This document shows, piece by piece, positions 49,644 to 64,000 of a DNA stretch of 64,000 nt; the stretch's first letter is position 1; every line of letters begins with the position of its first letter. Below the pieces are notes generated by a model. The model worked only from the letters and a program-made list of their open reading frames with translations, was not told where the DNA came from and made no database searches. Made by a program: the position numbers and the translations under genes. The stretch spans positions 1 to 64,000 of the forward strand of contig JAGXGM010000032.1 of NCBI GenBank assembly GCA_024636675.1. The letters run 5' to 3'. The DNA comes from Hydrogenophilales bacterium. GTDB taxonomy: Bacteria > Pseudomonadota > Gammaproteobacteria > Burkholderiales > Thiobacillaceae.

Positions 49644-52145
49644 CTACGAGGGGCTGAGCTTCCAGATATCGCGGTTGTATTCGACCATGGTGCGATCGGT
49701 CGAAAAGAAGCCACTCGACGCTGTGTTGAGGATGCTCATGCGCGTCCAGTTGGCCTGGTCCTGCCAGGCCTGCGAGACCCGTTCCTGCGCATCGACATAA
49801 CTGCGGAAATCCGCCAGCACCATCCACGGGTCATGCGGGCTCAGCAAGGTATCGAGGATCATGTCGAAGATGCCTGCCTCGCACAGGTTGAAATGGCCCG
49901 ACCGCAACAGGTCGATCACTTCACGCAGTTCGGGGTCTTTTTCCACGTAGGACATCGGCTGGTAATTCGATCGCAGCGTCTCGACTTCATCGGCACGCAG
50001 GCCGAACAGGAAGAAGTTGTCCTCACCCACGGCTTCGAGGATTTCAATGTTGGCGCCATCATAGGTGCCGATGGTGATCGCACCGTTCATCATGAACTTC
50101 ATGTTGCCGGTGCCGGACGCCTCCTTGCCTGCAGTCGATATCTGCTCGGAGAGGTCGGTCGCCGGCGCGATGATTTCCATGCTGCTGACCCGGTAGTTGG
50201 GCAGGAAGGCGACCTTGAGGCGGCCATTAACGTCGGGGTCGCTGTTAACGACCTCGGCCACGCTGTTGACCAGCTTGATGATGCGTTTGGCCATGACGTA
50301 ACCTGGCGCCGCCTTGCCGCCGATCAGCACGCAGCGGTCCGCCCAGCCATCCAGCCGTCCATGGTTGATGCGGTTGTACAGATGGATCACATGAAGCACA
50401 TTGAGCAGTTGCCGCTTGTATTCGTGGATGCGTTTGACCTGGACGTCGAACAGCGCATCCGGATTGAACTCGACGTCGCACTCAGCCTTGACCAGGGTGG
50501 CGAGGCGTTCCTTGTTGGCGTGCTTGACCGCGCGCCAGTCAGCATGAAATTCCGTGTGCTTCAGGTCGGCCAGCGGCTTCAGCTTTTCCAGCTGCGACAG
50601 ATCGGCCACCCAGCCATCGCAGATCTTGCTGCTGATGAGCGCGCTCATGGTGGGGTTGGCATGCGCCATCCAGCGCCGGGGCGTGACGCCATTGGTCTTG
50701 TTGTTGAACTTGTGCGGCCACAGGTCGACGAAATCGCGGAACAGGCCTTCTTGCAGCAATTTCGAATGCAACGCGGCGACGCCGTTGACAGAGAAGCTGC
50801 CGACGATGGCCAGCCAGGCCATGCGCAGCTGCTGCTCCTGGCCCTCCTCGACGATCGACATGCGGCGCCGACGGTCGATGTCGCCCGGCCATTTCACTGC
50901 CACTTCGCGCAGGAAGCGCGCGTTGATTTCGTAGATGATTTCCAGCAGCCGCGGCAACAGGCGTTGAAACAGCGCAACCGGCCAGCGCTCCAGCGCTTCG
51001 GGCAGCAGCGTGTGGTTGGTGTAGGCCATGCAGTGCGAGGTGATCGCCCAGGCCTCATTCCATTGCATGCCTTCCTGGTCAAGCAGCAGGCGCATCAGTT
51101 CGGCCACCGCGATGGACGGATGGGTGTCGTTCATCTGGAATACGTTGAGCTCGGCAAATTTCGACAGGTCGCTGTTGCCCGCCGTATGCCACTGGCGCAG
51201 CGCATCCTGCAGACTGGCCGAGGCCAGAAAATACTGCTGGCGCAGGCGCAACTCCTTGCCATTTTCGCTGGAGTCGTTGGGATAGAGAACCATCGAGATG
51301 TGCTCGGCGTGGTTCTTGGCCTGTACCGCCTCGGAGTAGCTGCCGGCATTGAATTCACTAAGATCGAACTCGTCGGTGGCGGCGGATTTCCATAAGCGCA
51401 GCGTGTTCACCGCGCTGTTGCGATAGCCAGAAATCGGCATATCGAAAGGCACCGCCAGCACATCATTGGTGTCGACCCAGCGCGCACGATGGATCCCCGC
51501 CCGGTCGTGATAATGCTCGGTCCGGCCGCCGAACTGCACGCGACAGGTATATTCGGGTCGTTCGACCTCCCACGGATTGCCGTCGCGCAGCCAGTTGTCG
51601 GGATCTTCGATCTGGTAACCGTTTTCGATGTGCTGGCGGAACATCCCATACTCGTAGTGGATGCCATAGCCCATCACCGGCAGGTTCAGCGTGGCGCAGC
51701 TGTCCATGAAGCACGCGGCAAGCCGGCCCAGGCCACCGTTCCCCAGCCCGGCGTCGGGCTCCTCTTCGGCGAGGTTCTCCAACGTCTGGCCAAAGCTGTG
51801 CAAGGATTCGCGCGTCACCTCGTCCAGTCCCAGATTGAGCACATGGTTGGACAGGGCGCGGCCGATCAAAAATTCCAGCGACAGGTAATAGGCGCGGCGC
51901 TTGCCCGGCTGGTCGCGTGCCGCGTAGGTGTTCATCCAGTCCGACATGAGACGGTCGCGCAGCGTCCGCGCCAGAGCCTGATAGGTATAGACGGGCGGGC
52001 TGCCCAGCATGCGCCCCAGATGATAAAACTGGTAACGCTCAAGATCGTGGGTGAACGCCTTGCTACTGTTCGGCAGCGGTTTCAGGGCAACGGAACGGGT
52101 GGCTGATTTTTTGGCGGTCATAGTAGTAGTTCGGTCTGAAGTCAT
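49644..52145 (-). CDS. glgP: Glycogen phosphorylase
   Basis: Releases glucose-1-phosphate from glycogen with phosphate. 833 residues. [36 protein letters not shown] and [18 protein letters not shown] are typical, and the PLP lysine is in [15 protein letters not shown]. Its ATG at 52145 overlaps the glgA stop (ATGA); an in-frame ATG at 52121 (MTAKKSA) is possible. Last gene of the pgi-to-glgP operon, so breakdown is co-transcribed with synthesis. Confidence 0.96.
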
Positions 52146-53599
52146 AAAGAATAGAGTGCAAGATAGTGGCCGGCGCTATCCGACCAGTCGAACGACTGAC
52201 GCATGCCAGTCTGCTGCAGCCGTCGCCACTGCTTTGACTGGCGGTGAAGGTTGAGCGCGCGGCCGATAGCGTCCAGAAAGGCGGGGGCACCCGGCGTGTC
52301 GAACACGAACCCGGTGGCACTGGCGTCGTCCAATGTGGCCGCATTCGCATCGACCACGGTATCGGCCAGTCCGCCTGTTTTATAGACGATGGGCGGCGTG
52401 CCGTAATGCAGGCTGTACATTTGGTTCAAACCGCAGGGCTCGAAGCGCGATGGCATCAGGAACATATCCGCCCCGGCCTCGATCTGGTGTGCCAGCGGCT
52501 CGTCATAGCCGATTGTCACAAACAGCCGCTCGGGATGCTGTTTGGCCAGCCGCAATAATTTCTTTTCATACGCCGCCTGTCCGCTGCCCAGCAGCACCAT
52601 GCGCACATCGGTCTCGGCGAGCAGCACCGGCATCGCTGCAAGTATCCAGTCAATCCCCTTCTGCTCGACCAGCCGTCCCACCATGCCCAGCAGGGGCGCC
52701 TGCATCGCCGCATCATCGACCAGCGGCAGGAAGCGTTCGAGCAAGGCCTGCTTGTTGCGCCGCTTGCCCGGCTGGATTCGCCCCACCGAATAATGGGCTG
52801 GCAGGTGCACATCGGTGGCCGGATTCCATACTCTCGTATCGATGCCGTTGAGGATGCCATGCAGCTTGTACTGCCGGGAACGGAGCAGCCCGTCGAGTCC
52901 GCAACCGAACGCCGGTGTACAGATTTCGGTGGCATACGTGGGACTCACCGTGGTGACGACGTCGGCATACACGATGCCGGCCTTCAACATCGAAAAACCG
53001 CCGTGGAACTCCACCCCTTCGGACGACCACCAGTGGCCGGGCAGCTGCAATCGAACGAAATCACTATGGGTAAAGTTGCCGCCATAGGCCAGGTTGTGGA
53101 TGGTGAACACGGTTTTCGGGCGCGCCGGCTGCTCGGCCAGAAACGCCGCGACCAGTCCGGTCTGCCAGTCGTGCGTGTGCACCACCGCGGGGAGCCAGCC
53201 CAGTTCCAGTGCGTCCTGAGCCAGCAACGCCGCCACCCGCGCAAATACCGCAAAACGCTCGGCATTGTCCGGCCAGTCCTGGCCGCTTTCGTCGACATAG
53301 GGATTGCCTTCGCGGTCGAACAGCGCAGGGCAATCAACCACCCATAACGGAAACGCATAATCGGGATGATGCGTTTCCAGGATGCGCACTCTGACAATGC
53401 CCCTGGCGCCGCGCACCTCGAGCCAGCCAAGCATGCGCACCTGGTCGAGCTGGCGCAGCAGCGCATGATAGCCCGGCAACACCAGGCGGACATCGGCGCT
53501 GCCCGCATGCAGGGCATGCGGCAGGCTATAGAGCACGTCGCCCAGCCCGCCGGTTTTCACCAGCGGGTAGGCTTCGCTGGCCACAAACAGGATTTTCAT
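52142..53599 (-). CDS. glgA: Glycogen synthase (ADP-glucose)
   Basis: GT5 glucosyltransferase extending alpha-1,4 chains from ADP-glucose. 485 residues. [22 protein letters not shown] has the KTGGL ADP-glucose motif, [15 protein letters not shown] and [16 protein letters not shown] are conserved, and [23 protein letters not shown] holds the catalytic Glu. The start at 53599 gives the family N-terminus; 53614 adds five residues. It is separated from glgB by 132 bases that contain a repeat element. Confidence 0.96.
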
Positions 53600-53625
53600 T
53601 TTTCCGCGTTTCATTATTTTCAGGA

Positions 53626-53731: not shown

Positions 53732-55939
53732 TCAACATGGCTTCAGGAAAATTGCGCCCAGCGGCGGCAACGTCACTTCAAAAGAATATTCGTACCCCAT
53801 CCACGGCAGGTTCTGCGGAAGCAAGGGCTGGCCGTTGCCGAGGTTGCTGCCGCCGTAATAGGTCGAATCGGTGTTCAGCACTTCGCACCACGCCGCGCCG
53901 GATGGAACGCCGATGCGATAGGCAGTACGCGGCACTGGGGTGAAGTTGAACAGCGCCACCATCTGTGCGGCATCTTCCTGCCCCTGGCGCACGAAGCTCA
54001 GCACCGACTGGTCGGCATCGTGGCAATCGATCCAGCGAAACCCGCGCGGGTCGAAGTCGAACTCATGCAGCGCTGCTTCGTTGCGGTACAGGTGATTGAG
54101 ATCGCGCAGCAGCGTGCGGATGCCGTCATGCGCCGGAAACTCGAGCAGCACCCAGTCAAGCTGGCCGGATTCCTGCCACTCTGTCCACTGGCCGAACTCG
54201 CTGCCCATGAACAGCAGTTTCTTGCCCGGATGCGCGTAGTGCCACGCATAGAACAGGCGCAGGTTGGCAAAGCGCTGCCAGACGTCGCCCGGCATCTTGT
54301 CGAGCAGGCTTTTCTTCATGTGCACCACTTCGTCGTGCGACAGCGGCAGCACGAAGTTTTCGGTCCACGCGTACACCTGGCTGAAGGTCAGCTGGTTGTG
54401 CTGATACTTGCGATAGATCGGTTCCTTTTCGATGTAGTCGAGGCTGTCGTTCATCCAGCCCATGTTCCATTTCATCGAAAAGCCGAGGCCGCCGAGCTCG
54501 ACCGGGCGCGACACCGCCGGCCAGGCGGTCGATTCCTCGGCGATGGTGAGGACACCGGGGAAGCGGCCGTGCACTTCGATGTTCATCTCGCGCAGAAACT
54601 CAACCGCCTCGATATTCTCGCGGCCGCCAAACTGGTTCGGCACCCATTCACCCGGCTTGCGCGAGTAATCGAGGTACAGCATCGACGCGACGGCGTCGAC
54701 GCGCAGGCCGTCAATGTGGAATTCGTCAAGCCAGTACAGCGCATTGGCGACCAGGAAGTTGCGCACCTCGTTACGGCCAAAATCGAACACCAGCGTGCCC
54801 CATTCCTGGTGCTCGCCACGGCGCGGGTCGGCATGCTCGTACACCGGCTCGCCGGTGAAGCGCGCCAGCGCCCAGTCGTCTTTGGGAAAATGCGCCGGCA
54901 CCCAGTCGAGCAGCACGCCGATATTTGCCTGGTGGCAGGCGTCGACAAAGGCGCGGAAATCGTCCGGCGAGCCGAAGCGCGCGGTCGGCGCGTAATAGCC
55001 CGATACCTGATAACCCCATGAGGCGTCGAGTGGATGCTCGGCCACCGGCATCAGTTCGATATGCGTGTAGCCGAGGTCCTGCACGTAGGGGATCAGTTCG
55101 GCGGAGATTTCATCCCAGCGATAAAAACCGCCATCGTCGTGGCGCCGCCAGGAACCGGGGTGCAGCTCGTAAATGCTGATCGGGCGATGTTGCCAGTCGA
55201 AATGCGCGCGCGCGGCGATCCAGTCGCTGTCGCCCCAGGCATGCGGCGTGTCATCAGGCACGCGGCTGGTAGTCTCGGGGCGCAGAAACATCTGTCGCGC
55301 ATAAGGATCGGTCTTTCTCACCAGCTGGCCGTGGCTGCCGAGAATTTCGTATTTGTAGGCCGGACCGGCGGCGAGGCCGGGAATGAACAATTCCCACATG
55401 CCCGAAGTGCCGCGGCAGCGCATCGGATAACGCCGGCCGTCCCATTCGTTGAAGTCGCCGACCACGCTGACGCGTTGCACTGCCGGCGCCCATACCGCGA
55501 ACAGGCAGCCCGTCACGCCGTCGATGGTCTTCAGGCGCGCGCCCAGCACTTTCCAGGCTTCAAGATGGCGCCCCTCGCCGAGCAGATGCAAATCCACCTC
55601 GCCCAGCTGCGGGGCGAAGGTGTAGGGGCATTGTGCGGTATGCCAGTCGCCCGCGCGCTTGTCCTGCCAGCGCATGACCGGATGGGCCTCGACCGGCGTG
55701 CCGGGCGGCAATAGCCGTTCAAAACAATCGGTGCCCGCCACCCGGGTCATGCGGCCGCCGGCCACCTCGACGGCTTCGGCGGCCGGCATGAAGCTTCGGA
55801 TCAGGGTGCTGCCGTCGGGCTGGGCATGAATGCCCAGCACCTCGAACGGATCGTGATGCGTGCCGGCCTGCACGCGCAGGATCGGCGGGGAGATCGCGGG
55901 CAGACTGGCGCCAGGCGGGGCTTGCGGGGACGCGTTCAT
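53732..55939 (-). CDS. glgB: 1,4-alpha-glucan branching enzyme
   Basis: GH13 enzyme that introduces alpha-1,6 branches. 735 residues: an N-terminal beta domain (about 30-120), CBM48 (about 125-225, VSVVGDFNEWDGRRYPM) and the catalytic barrel. Catalytic residues are the Asp in GLRVDAVASMLYLDYSR and Glu in TIAEEST, with LSHDEVVH as the third site. The ATG at 55939 overlaps the malQ stop (ATGA), which favours it over 55960. Confidence 0.97.
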   Translation of the reverse strand: MNASPQAPPGASLPAISPPILRVQAGTHHDPFEVLGIHAQPDGSTLIRSFMPAAEAVEVAGGRMTRVAGTDCFERLLPPGTPVEAHPVMRWQDKRAGDWHTAQCPYTFAPQLGEVDLHLLGEGRHLEAWKVLGARLKTIDGVTGCLFAVWAPAVQRVSVVGDFNEWDGRRYPMRCRGTSGMWELFIPGLAAGPAYKYEILGSHGQLVRKTDPYARQMFLRPETTSRVPDDTPHAWGDSDWIAARAHFDWQHRPISIYELHPGSWRRHDDGGFYRWDEISAELIPYVQDLGYTHIELMPVAEHPLDASWGYQVSGYYAPTARFGSPDDFRAFVDACHQANIGVLLDWVPAHFPKDDWALARFTGEPVYEHADPRRGEHQEWGTLVFDFGRNEVRNFLVANALYWLDEFHIDGLRVDAVASMLYLDYSRKPGEWVPNQFGGRENIEAVEFLREMNIEVHGRFPGVLTIAEESTAWPAVSRPVELGGLGFSMKWNMGWMNDSLDYIEKEPIYRKYQHNQLTFSQVYAWTENFVLPLSHDEVVHMKKSLLDKMPGDVWQRFANLRLFYAWHYAHPGKKLLFMGSEFGQWTEWQESGQLDWVLLEFPAHDGIRTLLRDLNHLYRNEAALHEFDFDPRGFRWIDCHDADQSVLSFVRQGQEDAAQMVALFNFTPVPRTAYRIGVPSGAAWCEVLNTDSTYYGGSNLGNGQPLLPQNLPWMGYEYSFEVTLPPLGAIFLKPC

Positions 55940-57288
55940 GGTTTGGGATTCGTCTCGCATCGGTGGGCTTTCTGTAATTTTTCAAGCAAACTGGATGCCA
56001 GATCGGGCGGCAGCGCGTCCCAGGCAAACCGCCAGGTCCAGTTGCCGTTGTCAGTGCCCGGCGTGTTCATGCGCGCCTCGGAACCCAGCCGCAACACGTC
56101 CTGCAGGGGCAGTACGGCCAGCGCGGCGCGACTTTGCAGCACCGCATCGACCATTGCGTCCGGCACCGCATCGGGGTCGCTGACGCCCAGTTTCCACATC
56201 ACATGCTGGCGTTCATGCTCGGGCCGCGTGCACCACCAGCCCAGCGTGGTGTCGTTGTCGTGCGTGCCGGTGTAGTACACGGTGTCGGGGTGCACGTTTT
56301 CGGGCTTGTGCGGATTGTCGGCGTGGTCGTCGAACGCGAATTGCAGCACGGCCATGCCGGGCAGGCCGAACTGGTGGCGCATCTCGGTGACATCCGGGGT
56401 GATGATGCCAAGGTCCTCTGCCACCAGGGGCAGTTCGCCCATTTCGTCGGCAATCGCCTGCAACAGCGCCGCACCCGGCGCCTTGACCCACTCGCCGTGG
56501 ATGGCGGTGGGTTCTTGGGCAGGGATCACCCAGGCTGCCGCCAGGCCGCGAAAATGATCGATACGCAACAAATCGAACCACTCGAAGTGCGCGGCGAGCC
56601 GTGCCCGCCACCAGGCAAAGCCGTCGGCCTGCATGACTGCCCAGTTGTAGTGCGGATTGCCCCAGCGCTGCCCCGTTTCGGAAAAATAATCCGGCGGCAC
56701 TCCCGACACCACCATGGGATGACCCGCGTCGTCCAACAGGAACAATCTGCGTTGCGCCCATACGTCGGCGCTGTCGTGGGCAACGAAAATCGGCATGTCG
56801 CCGAATAGCTGGATGCCGCGCGCCGTCGCCTGGGCGCGCAGTGCCTGCCACTGCACGGCGGCACGGTACTGTTCGGCCATTACAGCGTCCAGCTTGCCGG
56901 CGTGGGCGGCATCGAACCCGGCCAGCGTCTGCGCGTCGCGGTCGCGCAGCACGACCGGCCAGTCGGTCCAGGGCGCTCCGCCCTGCTCCGCCTTGATCAC
57001 CATGAAGCGCGCGTAATCTTCCAGCCAATGCGTCTGCTGCCGGCGCCAGTCCGCAAACCCGCTCATATCCACCGGCGCGGCGGGAAACAGCGCGGGATTG
57101 ACCGCAAATGCCGACGCGCACTGATAGGGCGACAGGCCGGTGAGCGGGATGCCCAGCGGCAGCATCTGCCACACGCAGACCCCCGCCGCCTGCAGGAAAT
57201 CCAGCCAGCGTCCGGCATCGGCCAGGGTGCCGGACGGCAGCGAGGTCGGATGCAGCAACAGGCCGGCGCGGTGGGTGTCGAAATTCAT
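55936..57288 (-). CDS. malQ: 4-alpha-glucanotransferase (amylomaltase)
   Basis: GH77 enzyme that moves maltodextrin pieces between glucans, recycling short chains during glycogen turnover. 450 residues, shorter than the E. coli MalQ (about 690) and close to the compact Thermus type. GLLLHPTSLPS, GLSPYQCASAFAVNP, LFGDMPIFVAHDSADVWAQ, LRIDHFRGL with the catalytic Asp, VAEDLG with the Glu, and YTGTHDNDTTLGWW are conserved. It follows the GH57 gene after 33 bases. Confidence 0.95.
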   Translation of the reverse strand: MNFDTHRAGLLLHPTSLPSGTLADAGRWLDFLQAAGVCVWQMLPLGIPLTGLSPYQCASAFAVNPALFPAAPVDMSGFADWRRQQTHWLEDYARFMVIKAEQGGAPWTDWPVVLRDRDAQTLAGFDAAHAGKLDAVMAEQYRAAVQWQALRAQATARGIQLFGDMPIFVAHDSADVWAQRRLFLLDDAGHPMVVSGVPPDYFSETGQRWGNPHYNWAVMQADGFAWWRARLAAHFEWFDLLRIDHFRGLAAAWVIPAQEPTAIHGEWVKAPGAALLQAIADEMGELPLVAEDLGIITPDVTEMRHQFGLPGMAVLQFAFDDHADNPHKPENVHPDTVYYTGTHDNDTTLGWWCTRPEHERQHVMWKLGVSDPDAVPDAMVDAVLQSRAALAVLPLQDVLRLGSEARMNTPGTDNGNWTWRFAWDALPPDLASSLLEKLQKAHRCETNPKP

Positions 57289-57321: not shown

Positions 57322-59046
57322 TCAGGCGTTCCTGCGCATGGTGCCGGCGTTTTCCACCCAGCCGCCGCCAGCGGACAGCGGCACGTCGAGCAGCGCGGGC
57401 GGCGCCACGCCGAGCAGGCGATACAGTTCGCGCAGCTGGGTGCGATACAACTGTTCGAAGTCGCTGACGCTGCCCGACGGGTTGTAGTCACCGAACCACC
57501 AGAACCAGTCTGAACCCTCACACACCGCGAGCTGACGGGTGGCCAGCGCCAGCTGGTCGGTGTTCAGTTTGCCGGCGGCCACCACGCTGTCGTAGGCCTT
57601 TTTGGCGGCGACCAGATAGTCCCAGCCACGGTTCTTGTCGTCCGATCCGATCCAGGTCGAGAAGCTGCCGTAGACCCAACTGCCGGCCGCCAGCCGCTTC
57701 ATGGCCCTGGCCGGCGCGTGCGCGGCCTGCTCGGCGAAGGTGCCGACCTTGAGGGTGGGGTGGCTGGACAGCGTCGCGTAGAGCGCGTCCAGGAAATGGT
57801 GGCCGTTGTCGGGGTAGTACTCCCAAGCGTTTTCGCCGTCGAGAATGACCGATACCACATGACGGGAGGCATCCTTGTCAAAAAAAGTAGCGATGTTCTC
57901 CAGATGCTGGACGAAGTCACCCACCGCATCGTCGGCATGCCAGTCGCTGTACTTGAAGCCGATCAGGTCCGACAGGCCGTCGTCGCGGAAAAACACCCGG
58001 GGCTTGAGGCCGTCGATGCGCACGGGCGAGAACAGCGCGTGCTTGCCCTGTATCTCCTCTTCCGGACACCCCGACTTGACGCAACTGTTGCGCCACACGC
58101 CCTCGCCCGAAGCGGTCCAGGAAAACCCCATTGCGTCGAGCTGAGCCAGAGCATCCTCGCTCACCCCGCCTTCGGACAGCCACACGCCCGCCGGCCGGAT
58201 ACCGAAATAGCGCTCGAACACCTCGACACCATGCTGCAGATGCCAGCGTGAACGCTCCGCCCCGCCGGGGTAGGCGGGCGCATCGGGAACGGGAACGTCG
58301 GGCAATGCGTCGCGCAGATTGCCGAAGTCGTTCAAGAGCGGCACGATGGGATGGCCGTAGGGCGTCATCGACAGTTCGACCTGGCCGCGCTCGGCGAGCG
58401 CCCGGTAACGCGGAATCAGCCCGGCGATGCAACGCTGTATCAGGTGCAACAATTCATGGCGGTCGGCCGCAGAGAAGCCTTTTTCCTGCGTCATCAACCG
58501 CTGCGCCAGCGGCAGTTGCCTGAGCGAGTGCCCCAGCCAGGCGAGGTGATACCAGGTCAACAGATCAAGAAAATACTGCTCGGACAGGTAGCCCAGATGC
58601 CCATGCAGGTCGGCGCTGTCCACGGCGCCCGCATCGCTGGTGCCGATCATGCGCAACAGCCGATGAAACGCGGGATAGGGATGGATCATGCGCGGCGCAT
58701 GGCAGCGCTGGCAATCCTCAACGATGCGCTGGCGACTGTCGACATCCGACGGGATGCGCTCGACGCCGGACAGCAGATTCAGCATGTGGTCCTGAGTGGG
58801 CTTGCCGTGCTTCAACAGCACATCGAGCTGCTGTGCGTAGTCATCCAGCTGCTCCAGCAGCACCGGCGCGAAATTCACCACCACGCGCATCAAGGGATAG
58901 CGCTCCAGATGCGCGGCCATGTCGCTGTAGTCCTTGATGCCATGCAGGTACACCCAGGGCAGGTGATACGCGCCCTTGAGGCCTTCGCGGTAATACGGCT
59001 GGTGCATATGCCAGCACAGCACCACGTTGAGTGGCTTAGCCGTCAT
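57322..59046 (-). CDS. Glycoside hydrolase family 57 protein
   Basis: A 574-residue alpha-glucan-active enzyme. [15 protein letters not shown] is the GH57 N-terminal signature. The nucleophile Glu is in GVWLSEGG (the GxWLxE motif), and the acid/base Asp is expected in [29 protein letters not shown] and the helical C-terminal domain follow. GH57 members include alpha-amylases, branching enzymes and 4-alpha-glucanotransferases; this one most likely trims or remodels glycogen, and the sequence alone does not say which reaction. The ATG at 59046 lies 11 bases inside the 3' end of glgC. Confidence 0.9.
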
Positions 59047-60355
59047 AGTCGTTCTGCAGTCTCGCGTACAGATTCTGGCCAAGCATTGCCGGCGTCACCA
59101 GGGTGATGCCTTCCTTGGTCACGTGAAAGCGCTTGGCGTCCTCCACCGGATCCTCGCCGATCACCGTGCCGTCTTCGATCACGCACCCCTTGTCGATGAT
59201 GGCGCGGCTGATGCGGCAATGGCTGCCGATACTGACCTTGGGCAGGATCACGCTGTCCTTGATCAGGCTGTAGTTTTCCACCGTGGTGGCGAAAAAAAGC
59301 ACCGAGCGTTTGACCCGCGCGCCCGACAGGATGCAGCCGCCGGCGATCAGCGAATCGATCGCCTCGCCGCGCCGCCCCTCGTCGTCGAGGATGAACTTGG
59401 CGGGCGGGTATTGCGGCTGGTAGGTCCAGATCGGCCAGTCGCGGTTGTACAGGTTGAGCTCGGGCTCGACCGAGCACAGCTCCATGTTGGTCTGCCAGTA
59501 GGAATACAGCGTCCCCACGTCGCGCCAGTAGGCCGGCAGCCCCTCCTTGTCGCGGAAAGGGAAAGCCATCGCACGGGCTTCGCCGATGTTGTCGGGAATG
59601 ATGTTCTTGCCGAAGTCGTGGGCAGATTGAGAATTGCTGGCATCGTCGATCAGCGTTTTGTAGAGAAAGTCCTTGGAGAAAATGTAAATCCCCATCGATA
59701 CCAGCGTGATGCCCGGTTTGCCGGGAATGCTGTCGGGTTGTGCGGGCTTTTCGGTGAATCGGGTAATGCGCATGTCCTCGTCCACCGTCATCACGCCGAA
59801 TGCGCTCGCCTCGGCCGCCGGCACCTCGATGCTGCCGACGGTGAAATCCGCGCCGGTCTGCACGTGATAGAGCAGCATTTCCGAGTAATCCATGGTGTAA
59901 ACGTGGTCGCCGCCCAGCACCAGCACATACTCCGGGTGGTGGCGCTGCATGATGTCGATGTTCTGGAACAGCGCATCGGCGGTGCCCTGGTACCACTCCT
60001 TCTTGTTGGTACGCTGCTGCGCCGGCAGGATTTCCACGAACTCGCCGATCTCGGCGCGCATGAAACCCCACGCACGCTGCAGGTGGCGAATCAGCGAATG
60101 CGACTTGTACTGGGTAAGCACGCCGATGCGGCGGATGCCCGAGTTGACGCAGTTCGATAGCGTGAAGTCGATGATGCGGTACTTGCCGCCGATCGGCACC
60201 GCCGGCTTGGCGCGCCAGGCAGTCAGGTCCTTCAGCCGTGATCCCTCGCCACCCGCCAGCACAAGTGCCAGCGTCCGGCGCGTAAGGTCGGTCGCGATCT
60301 TGGGCTCGGTGTAATAGCGATAAAGCCGCGTCTGTTCTTCCTTGGTAATGGTCAT
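59036..60355 (-). CDS. glgC: Glucose-1-phosphate adenylyltransferase
   Basis: Makes ADP-glucose, the committed step of glycogen synthesis. 439 residues. [40 protein letters not shown] (seen in parts) is the nucleotide site, GTADALFQN and [13 protein letters not shown] follow, and a left-handed beta-helix with [34 protein letters not shown] closes the protein. Allosteric control by sugar phosphates is usual in the family. The ATG at 60355 gives [14 protein letters not shown]; glk lies 52 bases upstream. Confidence 0.97.
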
Positions 60356-60407
60356 GCCCGCTCCTGGTTGCGCTGGTCTGGAATGAAAGGTGATTGGATA
60401 TGATCGA

Positions 60408-61376
60408 TCAAGGCGTGGCAAACCCGGTTGCGATTGCACCCTGTACGCCCAGCCGGTTGTTGGTGATCAGAAGAATCGGGGTGCGCTCGGCGACTCCGCG
60501 CATGCGCCCCTTGTCGGCGGCTGCAGCCATGAAGCGTGGCGACTGCATGCGCTCCCGCAGATGAACGGCGATGCCGCCCGCAACGTACAAACCGCCGCGC
60601 GGCTGGTAGAGCAGCGCCACATTGCCGATCCATGATCCATATAAATCGATGAACAGGTCGAGCGCGGCCCCGGCAGCAGAATCGCCGGCCTCGGCGCGGT
60701 CGACCAGCGCGGCACCGTCGACCGGATCGTCGGGCAGCGCGGCATGCTGTTCGGTACAACAGAAACGGTACAGGTCGTTCATCGCCAATCCCGACACCGC
60801 CCGCTCCCACGATACATGGCCATAGGACGGGCGCAATTGTTCCAGCAAACGTTGCTGCTGCGCATTGGCCGGCCCGAAGTCGACATGCCCGCCTTCGCTG
60901 GCGAAGCTGCGATAGCGACCATTGGCATCGGCCAGCATGAAAGCCAGTCCCAACCCGGTGCCGGCGCCGGTGATGGCGCGCACGCCACCTGTCTCGGTCG
61001 GCTGCGGATTGAGCGTAATCACGTCGGCGTCAGTCAGCGTCGCCACACCGGCGGCGGCGGCCTGGAAGTCGTTGATAAAGCGGACATAATCAATGCCGAG
61101 CGAAGCGCGCATGTCAGCGGCTGACAGCGTCCAGTCCAGGTTGGTGAGGGTGGCGCGCTGCGCGTCGAGCGGCCCCGGCAGTGCCAGCAACAGACGGTCC
61201 GGCCTTTTTGTCAGCTTCGAATCGGCGATGAACTGGCGAATCAGGTCGTCCGCCGTTGCGAATGCCGCACTCGGATACACCTGTTCGAAACGCAACTGCT
61301 GGACGCCGTCCGGTTCGCCCGTCATCCACGCCAGCCAGCTCTTGGTTCCGCCGATATCGCCTGCAATGAGATCCAT
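60408..61376 (-). CDS. glk: Glucokinase
   Basis: Phosphorylates glucose with ATP. 322 residues of the bacterial Glk type (not ROK): [15 protein letters not shown] is the phosphate-1 motif, [12 protein letters not shown] has the catalytic Asp, [14 protein letters not shown] and [13 protein letters not shown] are further signatures, and the C-terminal [10 protein letters not shown] fits. It feeds free glucose released from glycogen back to glucose-6-phosphate. It starts ten bases after pgi. Confidence 0.95.
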
Positions 61377-61386
61377 AAGCGAATTA

Positions 61387-63078
61387 TCAGCCAGTCGTGC
61401 GCTGGCGTATGCACCGGTACTGATTGATCAGCGAATTGGTCGAGGCGTCGTGGCTGGACACCATCGCGTCGGCATGCAGTTCTGGCAGGATGCGGCGAGC
61501 GAGCTGTTTGCCGAGTTCCACCCCCCATTGGTCGTATGAGTTCAGATTCCAGATCACGCCCTGCACGAAGATCTTGTGCTCGTAGAGCGCAATCAGCATG
61601 CCCAGGGTGTGCGGCGTGAGCGTCTGCAGCAGGATCGCATTGCTGGGATGGTTGCCGTCGAATACCTTGTGCTGCACGAACGCGCCGGCCTGGCTCGACT
61701 CCGAGCCTCCTTCAAGCGAGCCCATTTCAAGCTGCGTCTCCTCGCGCGTGCGACCGCGCATCAGCGCCTCGGTCTGCGCCAGGACGTTGGCGATCAGGAT
61801 GTCGTGATGTTCCTGCAATTCGGTCGGCGGCTCGAGCGAGACGATAAAGTCGGCCGGGACCAGCCGGGTGCCCTGGTGCAGCAACTGGTAGAACGCGTGC
61901 TGGCCGTTGATGCCGGTTGCGCCCCAGATGATGGGGCCGGTGGCGTAATCCACCCCCTTGCCGTCGCGATCGACCGACTTGCCGTTGCTTTCCATGTCGG
62001 CCTGCTGCAGATAGGCGGGCAGGCTGCGCAGGGCGTGGTCGTAAGGCAGGATGGCCTGCGATTGTGCGCCGAAAAAATTGTTGTACCAGACGCCCAGCAG
62101 CGCCAGGATCACCGGCATGTTCTGATCGGGCGGCGCCTCGCGAAAATGCGCGTCCATCGCGTGCGCGCCGGCCAGCATTTCGATGAAGCGCTCAGCCCCC
62201 ACCGCCAGCATGATCGGCAGCCCGATCGCCGACCACAGCGAATAGCGCCCACCCACCCAGTCCCAGAATTCGAACATGTTGGCGGGGTCGATGCCGAAGG
62301 CCGTCACCGCCTCGCGGTTGGTCGACACCGCGACAAAGTGCCTGGCGATGTGGCCGTCTTCCTGCGCCTGCGCCAGAAACCAGGTACGCGCATAGTGCGC
62401 GTTGGTCATCGTTTCCTGCGTGGTGAAGGTTTTCGACGCCACGATGAACAGCGTGGTTGCAGGATTCAGCGATTCCAGCGCCGCCTTCACATGGGCGCCG
62501 TCGATATTGGAAATGAAATGCAGCTTCATCTGCGGGTGGCGATAAGGCGCCAGCGCCTGGACCGCCATCTGCGGCCCCAGGTCGGAGCCGCCGATGCCGA
62601 TGTTGACCACGTCGGTGATCCGTTCGCCACTGTAGCCGCGCCATTCGCCGCTGCGCACCTGCCCGGCAAACGCACCCATCTTTTCGATCACCGCGTTGAC
62701 CTTCGGCATCACATCCTCGCCGTCGACTATCACCGGATGATTGCCGCGGTTGCGTAGCGCCACATGCAGCACCGCGCGGTTTTCAGTGTTGTTGATCTTC
62801 TCGCCGCCGAACATGCGCCCGCGCCAGCCCGTCACATCCGCTTCTTCGGCCAGTTGCATGAGCAGGCGCATGGTTTCGTCGGTGATGCGGTTTTTCGAGT
62901 AATCCAGCAGCACATCGCCTACCTGCAGCGAAAACCGTTCGGCGCGGGCCGGGTCGGCAGCAAACAGGTCGCGCATGTGCGTCGACGCCATCTGCGTCCG
63001 GTGCGTCTGCAGCACGCGAGACACCGGCCAAGGCAACGCGCCCGACTCGCCGCCAAATTTCTCTACATATAAAGGCAT
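61387..63078 (-). CDS. pgi: Glucose-6-phosphate isomerase
   Basis: Interconverts glucose-6-P and fructose-6-P. 563 residues. [46 protein letters not shown], and the C-terminal [21 protein letters not shown] with the active-site Lys are conserved. GGAGGA at 63085-63090 precedes the ATG at 63078 ([10 protein letters not shown]); nine codons further upstream are in frame but unlikely. First gene of the glycogen operon, placed about 39 bases after the predicted sigma-54 start. Confidence 0.96.
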
Positions 63079-63128
63079 TCCTATCCTCCCATTCAACGAC
63101 AACATCCGCTGTCGTTCAGCTGTTATCT

Positions 63129-63144
63129 AGCAACGCCTGTGCCA
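63129..63144 (-). promoter_or_regulatory. Sigma-54 (-24/-12) promoter of the pgi-glycogen operon
   Basis: Read on the minus strand: TGGCAC-AGGCG-TTGCT. It matches the consensus TGGCAC-N5-TTGCW at every fixed position, with GG and GC ten bases apart. Transcription would start near 63118, leaving a 39-base leader with the GGAGGA of pgi. A 16-base palindrome (63197-63212) is placed as an enhancer site. Confidence 0.72.
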
Positions 63145-63196
63145 CACACATCCGCTCCAATGTATGCCATCGCAAACCCTATTGAAGACCGGTGAA

Positions 63197-63212
63197 GCCT
63201 TGATGACAAGGC
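63197..63212. promoter_or_regulatory. Palindrome at an enhancer-site position upstream of pgi
   Basis: GCCTTG-ATGA-CAAGGC, a perfect 6-bp-arm palindrome centred about 86 bases upstream of the predicted sigma-54 start. Binding by an NtrC-family activator is inference. A second palindrome, GGTGC-CTATA-GCACC, lies at 63306-63320. Confidence 0.4.
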
Positions 63213-63348
63213 CATGAGCGCACCCAGTCAATGCAGGCTCCATCTTCTTTAAGCGTAGGGCAGAAATGATCACAATGCACCCAAATAGTGCCGCAACTAC
63301 AGGACGGTGCCTATAGCACCTGAAGGGAAATCCTGAAAGAAAACTGAT

Positions 63349-63435
63349 TGGTGCCGGGAGGGGGACTCGAACCCCCACACTGTTACCAGCGGCGGATTTT
63401 GAATCCGCTGCGTCTACCGATTCCGCCATCCCGGC
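63349..63435 (-). tRNA. tRNA-Leu (anticodon CAA)
   Basis: 87 bases with encoded CCA. The acceptor stem GCCGGGA pairs with TCCCGGC. The anticodon loop is TTCAAAA between GCGGA and TCCGC, giving anticodon CAA, which reads TTG. A long variable arm (class II) and a T loop GGTTCGAGTCC complete the cloverleaf. Base A precedes CCA. Confidence 0.97.
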
Positions 63436-63514
63436 AAGGGCCGAACGCGAACGCGTTCGGCGACAGAAGCCGCGCATTATCGCCGAATCAGGCGCCCTGC
63501 CGCAAGGCGACGGC

Positions 63515-63520
63515 TATAAT
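63515..63520 (+). promoter_or_regulatory. -10 box of queA, candidate leaderless promoter
   Basis: TATAAT followed by CGCGCCCC and the ATG at 63529. Start of transcription would fall within about two bases of the ATG; there is no room for a ribosome binding site. No -35 box. Confidence 0.45.
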
Positions 63521-63528
63521 CGCGCCCC

Positions 63529-64000
63529 ATGCTAGTTGCCGATTTTGATTTTGATCTTCCCCCTGAGCTGATCGCGCAGCTGCCGCCTGCGGTGCGCGGC
63601 GGCAGCCGGCTGCTGCACGTCGAGCCCTCAGGCGCGCTGCATGACCGCTGGTTCAGCGAGTTGCCAACCCTGCTGCGCCCGGATGACTTGCTGGTGATGA
63701 ACGACACGCGCGTGATCAAGGCGCGGCTGTTCGGCACCAAGGATTCCGGCGGCAAGGTTGAACTGCTGGTGGAACGGGTCACGGGCGAATTTGATGCGCT
63801 GGCCTTCATCCGCGCGAGCCATGCGCCCAAGCCGGGTTCCCGCATTCAGCTTGCCGAAGGCATTGCCATCGACGTGCTGGCGCGCCAGGACGACCTGACG
63901 CAGCTGCGCTTTTCGCGCCCGGTGCTGGAAGTGCTCGACCAGCTCGGCCAGCTGCCGCTGCCGCCCTACATTGAGCACACGCCGACGGCCGACGACGAGG
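63529..64000 (+). CDS. queA: S-adenosylmethionine:tRNA ribosyltransferase-isomerase (5' part)
   Basis: Queuosine synthesis: moves the ribosyl part of SAM onto 7-aminomethyl-deazaguanine in tRNA to give epoxyqueuosine. The first 157 residues are present, and the frame is open at the right edge. DFDFDLPPELIAQ at the N-terminus, LRPDDLLVMNDTRVIKARLFG and GGKVELLVERV are QueA signatures, and PLPPYIEH lies near the window edge. A tgt gene would be expected next, outside the window. Confidence 0.95.
   Translation, partial: MLVADFDFDLPPELIAQLPPAVRGGSRLLHVEPSGALHDRWFSELPTLLRPDDLLVMNDTRVIKARLFGTKDSGGKVELLVERVTGEFDALAFIRASHAPKPGSRIQLAEGIAIDVLARQDDLTQLRFSRPVLEVLDQLGQLPLPPYIEHTPTADDE

Follow-up and report, generated by a model that had tools for sequence, protein, structure and literature searches.

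The closest described systems are the promoters of the Ntr regulon (glnA, glnK-amtB, nitrate assimilation), in which a -24/-12 box is combined with an upstream enhancer of the form GCAC-N7-GTGC, a motif that we take to be the NtrC site of enteric glnA. A further point of comparison is the E. coli glycogen operon glgBXCAP, to which the operon described below is similar in being under nutrient-state control and which is assigned in the accessible part of the source to sigma-70 and sigma-38, together with CRP, PhoP-PhoQ and CsrA (PMC10819704). Sigma-54 sites have been reported for the glgA genes of Salmonella and E. coli, and the accessible texts describe them as intragenic (PMC3844500, PMC4591121). 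Neither glg nor glycogen is mentioned in the main text, as accessible, of a study on E. coli RpoN (PMC8743547). Within the accessible texts of the open PMC literature, which most subscription journals lie outside of, we found no description of a sigma-54 promoter ahead of a glycogen operon. As for a link between glycogen and nitrogen, the accessible parts of two reports state that transcripts of glgA1 and glgX1 are increased in S. meliloti under nitrogen limitation (PMC5596199), and that glg transcripts did not rise in N2-fixing cells of a distant verrucomicrobial methanotroph (PMC3404531), the latter counting against a nitrogen-limitation reading.

Our analysis of a stretch of 64,000 nucleotides (the window) points to a sigma-54 promoter of the familiar Ntr type with an unusual target, since unlike in the Ntr regulon it is a glycogen operon that lies behind it. 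Judging from sequence comparisons, we consider it likely (probability roughly 0.78) that the region 63291-63118 on the minus strand is an NtrC-activated sigma-54 promoter that serves an eight-gene glycogen operon under nitrogen limitation. This reading is built on the elements themselves, their conservation and near-fixed spacing, their joint absence from five loci, their persistence without pgi in three, and on RpoN and NtrC being encoded in the genome. The elements upstream of the operon are as follows.

63277..63291, minus strand: GCACTATTTGGGTGC, enhancer, NtrC-type site (GCAC-N7-GTGC), 147 bases above the box; conserved
63220..63234, minus strand: GCATTGACTGGGTGC, possible weak second enhancer site with 1 mismatch, 90 bases above the box
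63197..63212, minus strand: GCCTTGTCATCAAGGC, palindrome of the earlier note, overlapping the third block
63176..63209, minus strand: TTGTCATCAAGGCTTCACCGGTCTTCAATAGGGT, third block; conserved, Pho-box-like, with a -10-like end
63130..63144, minus strand: TGGCACAGGCGTTGC, -24/-12 box, sigma-54 promoter core with GG-N10-GC spacing
63118, minus strand: predicted sigma-54 transcript start, placed from spacing only

The earlier note on this DNA had described a minus-strand box TGGCAC-N5-TTGCT with GG-N10-GC spacing, and this box is indeed present at 63144-63129: TGG-N9-TGC with the GG-N10-GC spacing is matched exactly at 63144-63130, and 63129 is the next T on the minus strand after TGGCACAGGCGTTGC. 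The box also matches the E. coli RpoN consensus TGGCACnnTTnTTGC as given in the accessible text (PMC8743547). With zero mismatches TGGCAC-N5-TTGC occurs a single time in the whole window; when up to two mismatches are allowed, the window has 76 matches where 97 would be expected, which means no enrichment of the loose motif. Throughout the 2.54-Mb genome 13 exact occurrences were counted versus 7 for the reversed control, which makes a lone box mildly unusual and lets the case for it rest on conservation. The likely start codon of pgi is the ATG at 63078, about 50 bases from TGGCACAGGCGTTGC and with GGGAGGATAGGA ahead of it; the longest frame opens at 63105. A transcript beginning at about 63118 would thus have a leader of about 40 nt, in agreement with the leader of about 39 bases with an internal ribosome binding site that had been proposed before. 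A simple scan of 63000-63600 detected neither a sigma-70 consensus promoter nor an intrinsic terminator. RpoN is encoded in the same genome (464.6 bits, over cut-off). Just upstream of the pgi promoter lies a tRNA-Leu (caa) at 63349-63435; several relatives show a tRNA at the same place and others do not.

The genes behind the promoter are listed in the order of transcription, with coordinates of the longest frames unless otherwise noted.

61387..63078, minus strand: pgi, glucose-6-phosphate isomerase, family match (longest frame from 63105)
60408..61376, minus strand: glk, glucokinase, family match
59036..60439, minus strand: glgC, ADP-glucose pyrophosphorylase, family match
57322..59082, minus strand: GH57-like alpha-glucan enzyme, weak match (E 1.2e-6, far below the curated cut-off)
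55936..57288, minus strand: malQ, 4-alpha-glucanotransferase, family match
53732..55960, minus strand: glgB, branching enzyme, family match
52142..53614, minus strand: glgA, glycogen synthase, family match
49644..52145, minus strand: glgP, glycogen/alpha-glucan phosphorylase, family match

The gene order pgi-glk-glgC-GH57-like-malQ-glgB-glgA-glgP is consistent with the family matches. At six of the seven junctions the longest frames overlap or are separated by no more than 33 bases; at the remaining one, between glgB and glgA, the distance is 117 bases. Elsewhere in the genome (G000 contig C35:39605-40792) there is a further gene for a GlgC-like protein, which is distantly related (40% identity).

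Conservation of the two elements was assessed in 36 genomes of the genus (G000-G035), in 33 of which the region upstream of the glycogen operon could be read. Of the three unreadable genomes, G007 lacks a GlgC match at 1e-60, G018 has a contig that stops short of the promoter, and G024 has a GlgC fragment at the edge of a contig. A search for Pgi over 60 genomes yielded 27 orthologous pgi loci of the same genus with readable upstream regions, our own genome included, to which six loci were added, five with the operon pgi absent or reduced to a remnant and one from a second contig; since locus L036 of G030 starts within pgi, the promoter of this genome was taken from contig C144. Of the 27 orthologous loci, 21 contained TGGYA-N6-TTGC and 19 contained GCAC-N7-GTGC; 18 had both elements and five had neither. 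When the 27 regions were shuffled, the means were 0.22 (box) and 0.34 (enhancer) loci, with a maximum of three each. Box and enhancer were associated across these loci (Fisher p 0.004, with kinship ignored). As a negative control we used upstream regions of paralogous pgi genes from the same genus (20 of the 31 lower-identity Pgi rows), and these contained the box in 0/20 and the enhancer in 0/20 cases.

The earlier note had suggested looking for the same box before the pgi or glg operons of relatives, and TGGY-N7-TTGC was found ahead of the glycogen operon in 26 of the 33 readable loci of the genus. An exact box and an exact enhancer 90-160 bases apart were present in 22/33 loci versus 0/30 shuffled sets, and their distance was 142-147 bases in 20 of these 22 pairs, the others being 134 (G030) and 113 (L020). 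In 21 aligned loci the mean column identity was 0.94 for the box (a value inflated by the choice of these loci for carrying the box), 0.84 for the enhancer, 0.79 for the third block and 0.51 elsewhere. The box with correct spacing was missing in 7/33 loci, namely in five pgi loci, in G013 and in L012 (G006), where the spacer is two bases short and the enhancer intact, either through a recent loss or through an assembly error. In L014 (G022), whose box is counted among the 26, the enhancer has one mismatch and lies 183 bases above the box, with an insertion between them; a short repeated stretch between the third block and the box accounts for this shift.

Both box and enhancer are missing in L026, L029, L030, L032 and L033. 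On the Pgi tree, in which 10/26 inner branches are strongly supported, these five loci fall in three places (a clade of L026, L029 and L030, then L032, and L033). The simplest account would be that the promoter is ancestral in the genus and was lost about three times together with the enhancer. All five genomes still have RpoN matches and an NtrC over the cut-off, and among the 60 genomes RpoN was matched in 59 and NtrC in all 60 (54 over the cut-off). The operon opens with glk in G019, G026 and G032, and here the enhancer and TGGCTTGAGCCTTGCT, 146 bases apart, are found ahead of glk. G003 has TGGCACAGCCGTTGC ahead of a pgi remnant and glk, with an enhancer that carries two mismatches, and G013 has neither box nor enhancer. 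Both elements are thus kept in three genomes whose operon lacks pgi, which indicates that the promoter goes with the operon and not with pgi. The Pgi matches of G003, G013, G019, G026 and G032 (glg loci L233-L235, L237, L238) consist only of the lower-identity paralogue.

Outside the genus the arrangement appears to be different. Five genomes that belong to other genera of the family have glgB and glgC in divergent orientation and pgi adjacent to glgB or close to it, and in none of the five was a strict box found in the region between glgB and glgC. A promoter profile based on sequence only, run against 250 genomes of the order under strict filters by which weak matches are lost, gave 4 matches at E <=0.01 and left 226 genomes without a match. 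Two of the four are G000 and G035; the other two, in G107 and G112, are weak and partial and do not look like glg promoters, as GlgC is missing from G112 at 1e-60 and the match in G107 lies about 590 kb from the glgC of that genome. The box-enhancer pair was found neither in other genera of the family nor, under strict filters, in the order sample. A Pgi scan of named relatives returned at least 80 loci at <=64% identity, and 6 of the 80 listed had glg-type neighbours.

The assignment of the enhancer to NtrC was calibrated within the same genome. Two GCAC-N7-GTGC sites together with the -24/-12 box TGGAACGCTGCTTGCT are located ahead of an ammonium transporter gene (amt), two such sites together with the box TGGCACGCCTTGTGCT ahead of a TorF-family porin gene that is followed by a PII-like gene (L176, G000:C14:65000-68000, tandem sites and box at about 1306-1430; the PII-like gene was recognised by eye), and one site together with the box TGGCACAGCGATTGCT ahead of a nirB-like gene. 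These calibrating operons are three in number, with amt and nirB (a fragment) below the NCBIfam cut-offs and amt far over the Pfam cut-off. The occurrence of the motif at nitrogen-type genes of the same genome supports the NtrC-site label. The glg enhancer lies further out, 147 bases above its box versus 69-108 in the three calibrating operons, and compared with Ntr promoters there is one exact site instead of a close pair. The candidate second site GCATTGACTGGGTGC has no consistent counterpart, with a mean shuffle fraction of 0.45 over 21 loci and no significance across the genus. NtrC itself is encoded (TIGR01818, 707.6 bits, over cut-off) with its GAFTGA loop present. The palindrome GCCTTGTCATCAAGGC, which the earlier note had regarded as the place of activator binding, does exist, with perfect 6-base arms around a 4-base centre and its midpoint 86 bases upstream of the predicted start, but it is not palindromic in the aligned relatives and was rejected as an activator site; the conserved site is at 63291-63277. 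The note's wider reading, a sigma-54 promoter tied to nitrogen, is supported at the level of sequence by the conserved box and by the GCAC-N7-GTGC enhancer.

A search for enhancer and box within 90-150 bases in the 60 genomes gave 50 places, compared with 1 when the control pattern was reversed. The glycogen operon accounts for 19 of the 50, in 19 genomes of the genus, and 31 are elsewhere. Our own genome has two such places, the glycogen operon and L187 on C85 (G000 contig C85:3620-3752), where GCACCAAGCCAGTGC and TGGCACGTGTGTTGC stand ahead of a GntR/UTRA regulator; a fumarate reductase/succinate dehydrogenase-like flavoprotein also follows this pair, and places in G002, G008 and G031 have an enhancer identical or nearly so to that of L187. 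Furthermore, TGGCACAGCCGTTGC, which is also the box of several glg promoters, occurs in L185 (G000:C76) immediately ahead of the gene for an XrtA/PEP-CTERM system ATPase.

A third conserved block, in its clearest form TGTCAT-N7-TCAC-N10-TAT, is located between the enhancer and the box. This exact form was found in 8/41 genomes, all eight times before the glg operon; the copy in our own genome is a variant outside the exact form. In the clearest copies the block resembles PhoB-dependent promoters in having half-sites 11 bases apart, an N10 spacer and a -10-like TAT, but differs from them in its second half-site, which is weak while the first is good, and in that its sequence is unlike the pstS box of the genus. 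The latter reads CTGNMAT-N4-CTGTAAT in 15/20 loci upstream of pstS, with the same spacing as the glg block, whereas a strict CTGTCAT-type Pho pattern was found ahead of pstS in 0/21 loci. Our own genome has pstS. Compared with the Pho consensus, the block has a mean best score of 10.6/14 versus 9.3 in shuffles, a small excess. It may perhaps be a second, activator-dependent promoter that belongs to PhoB. In Streptomyces coelicolor glycogen catabolism is repressed by PhoP, according to the accessible part of the source (PMC4415409). That the operon integrates nutrient limitation, with an NtrC/sigma-54 and a sigma-70 (PhoB-like) promoter in one 175-base stretch, is possible but rather doubtful; if it were so, nitrogen or phosphate shortage would each turn the cell to carbon storage.

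The block could also be the main control of the operon, as an activator-dependent sigma-70 promoter, perhaps of PhoB, with the sigma-54 box being minor or conditional. Its column identity and its restriction to the glg operon in the exact form speak for this, and so does its visibility in some loci without box and enhancer, e.g. L033. We nevertheless regard it as very unlikely, in view of the small excess over shuffles, the dissimilarity to the pstS box and the poor state of the block in L029 and L032; moreover, glg and glycogen are not mentioned in the accessible part of a text on PhoB sites of E. coli (PMC3465305). Somewhat less improbable, though still unlikely, is a real sigma-54 promoter that is driven by another enhancer-binding protein and responds to a signal other than nitrogen. 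Candidates exist, as the genome encodes five further proteins in which GAFTGA and a strong sigma-54 activation domain were found, namely a PEP-CTERM response regulator over cut-off, one protein matched best by GlrR and one by NifA (both below cut-off), and two unassigned ones, yet the form of the enhancer is shared with the pairs at amt and at the porin/PII-like genes, which are of nitrogen type. A chance match of the box, finally, is hardly credible. The 13 matches in the genome, several of them within reading frames, show how such a box might arise, but conservation together with the shuffle and paralogue controls makes this improbable, and the joint loss in five loci and the retention without pgi also argue against it.

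For the NtrC-activated sigma-54 promoter the following mechanism is proposed. Under nitrogen limitation, phosphorylated NtrC would bind GCACTATTTGGGTGC and loop to the closed complex of RNA polymerase and RpoN at TGGCACAGGCGTTGC, and its ATPase would then open this complex so that the operon is transcribed. We infer that NtrC would bind here and would activate rather than repress, that transcription would start near the predicted position and read through all eight genes, and that glycogen levels would be affected accordingly: surplus fixed carbon would be directed to glycogen when protein synthesis cannot take it up. Bacteria of the genus would thus probably build their carbon store when nitrogen is short. 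If true, this would place the entire glycogen pathway, synthesis as well as breakdown, directly within the nitrogen-stress regulon, in contrast to the sigma-70/sigma-38, CRP, PhoP and CsrA controls known from E. coli, and would provide a testable rule for the timing of carbon storage in these bacteria, with the species that have the switch and their relatives without box and enhancer forming a natural experiment.
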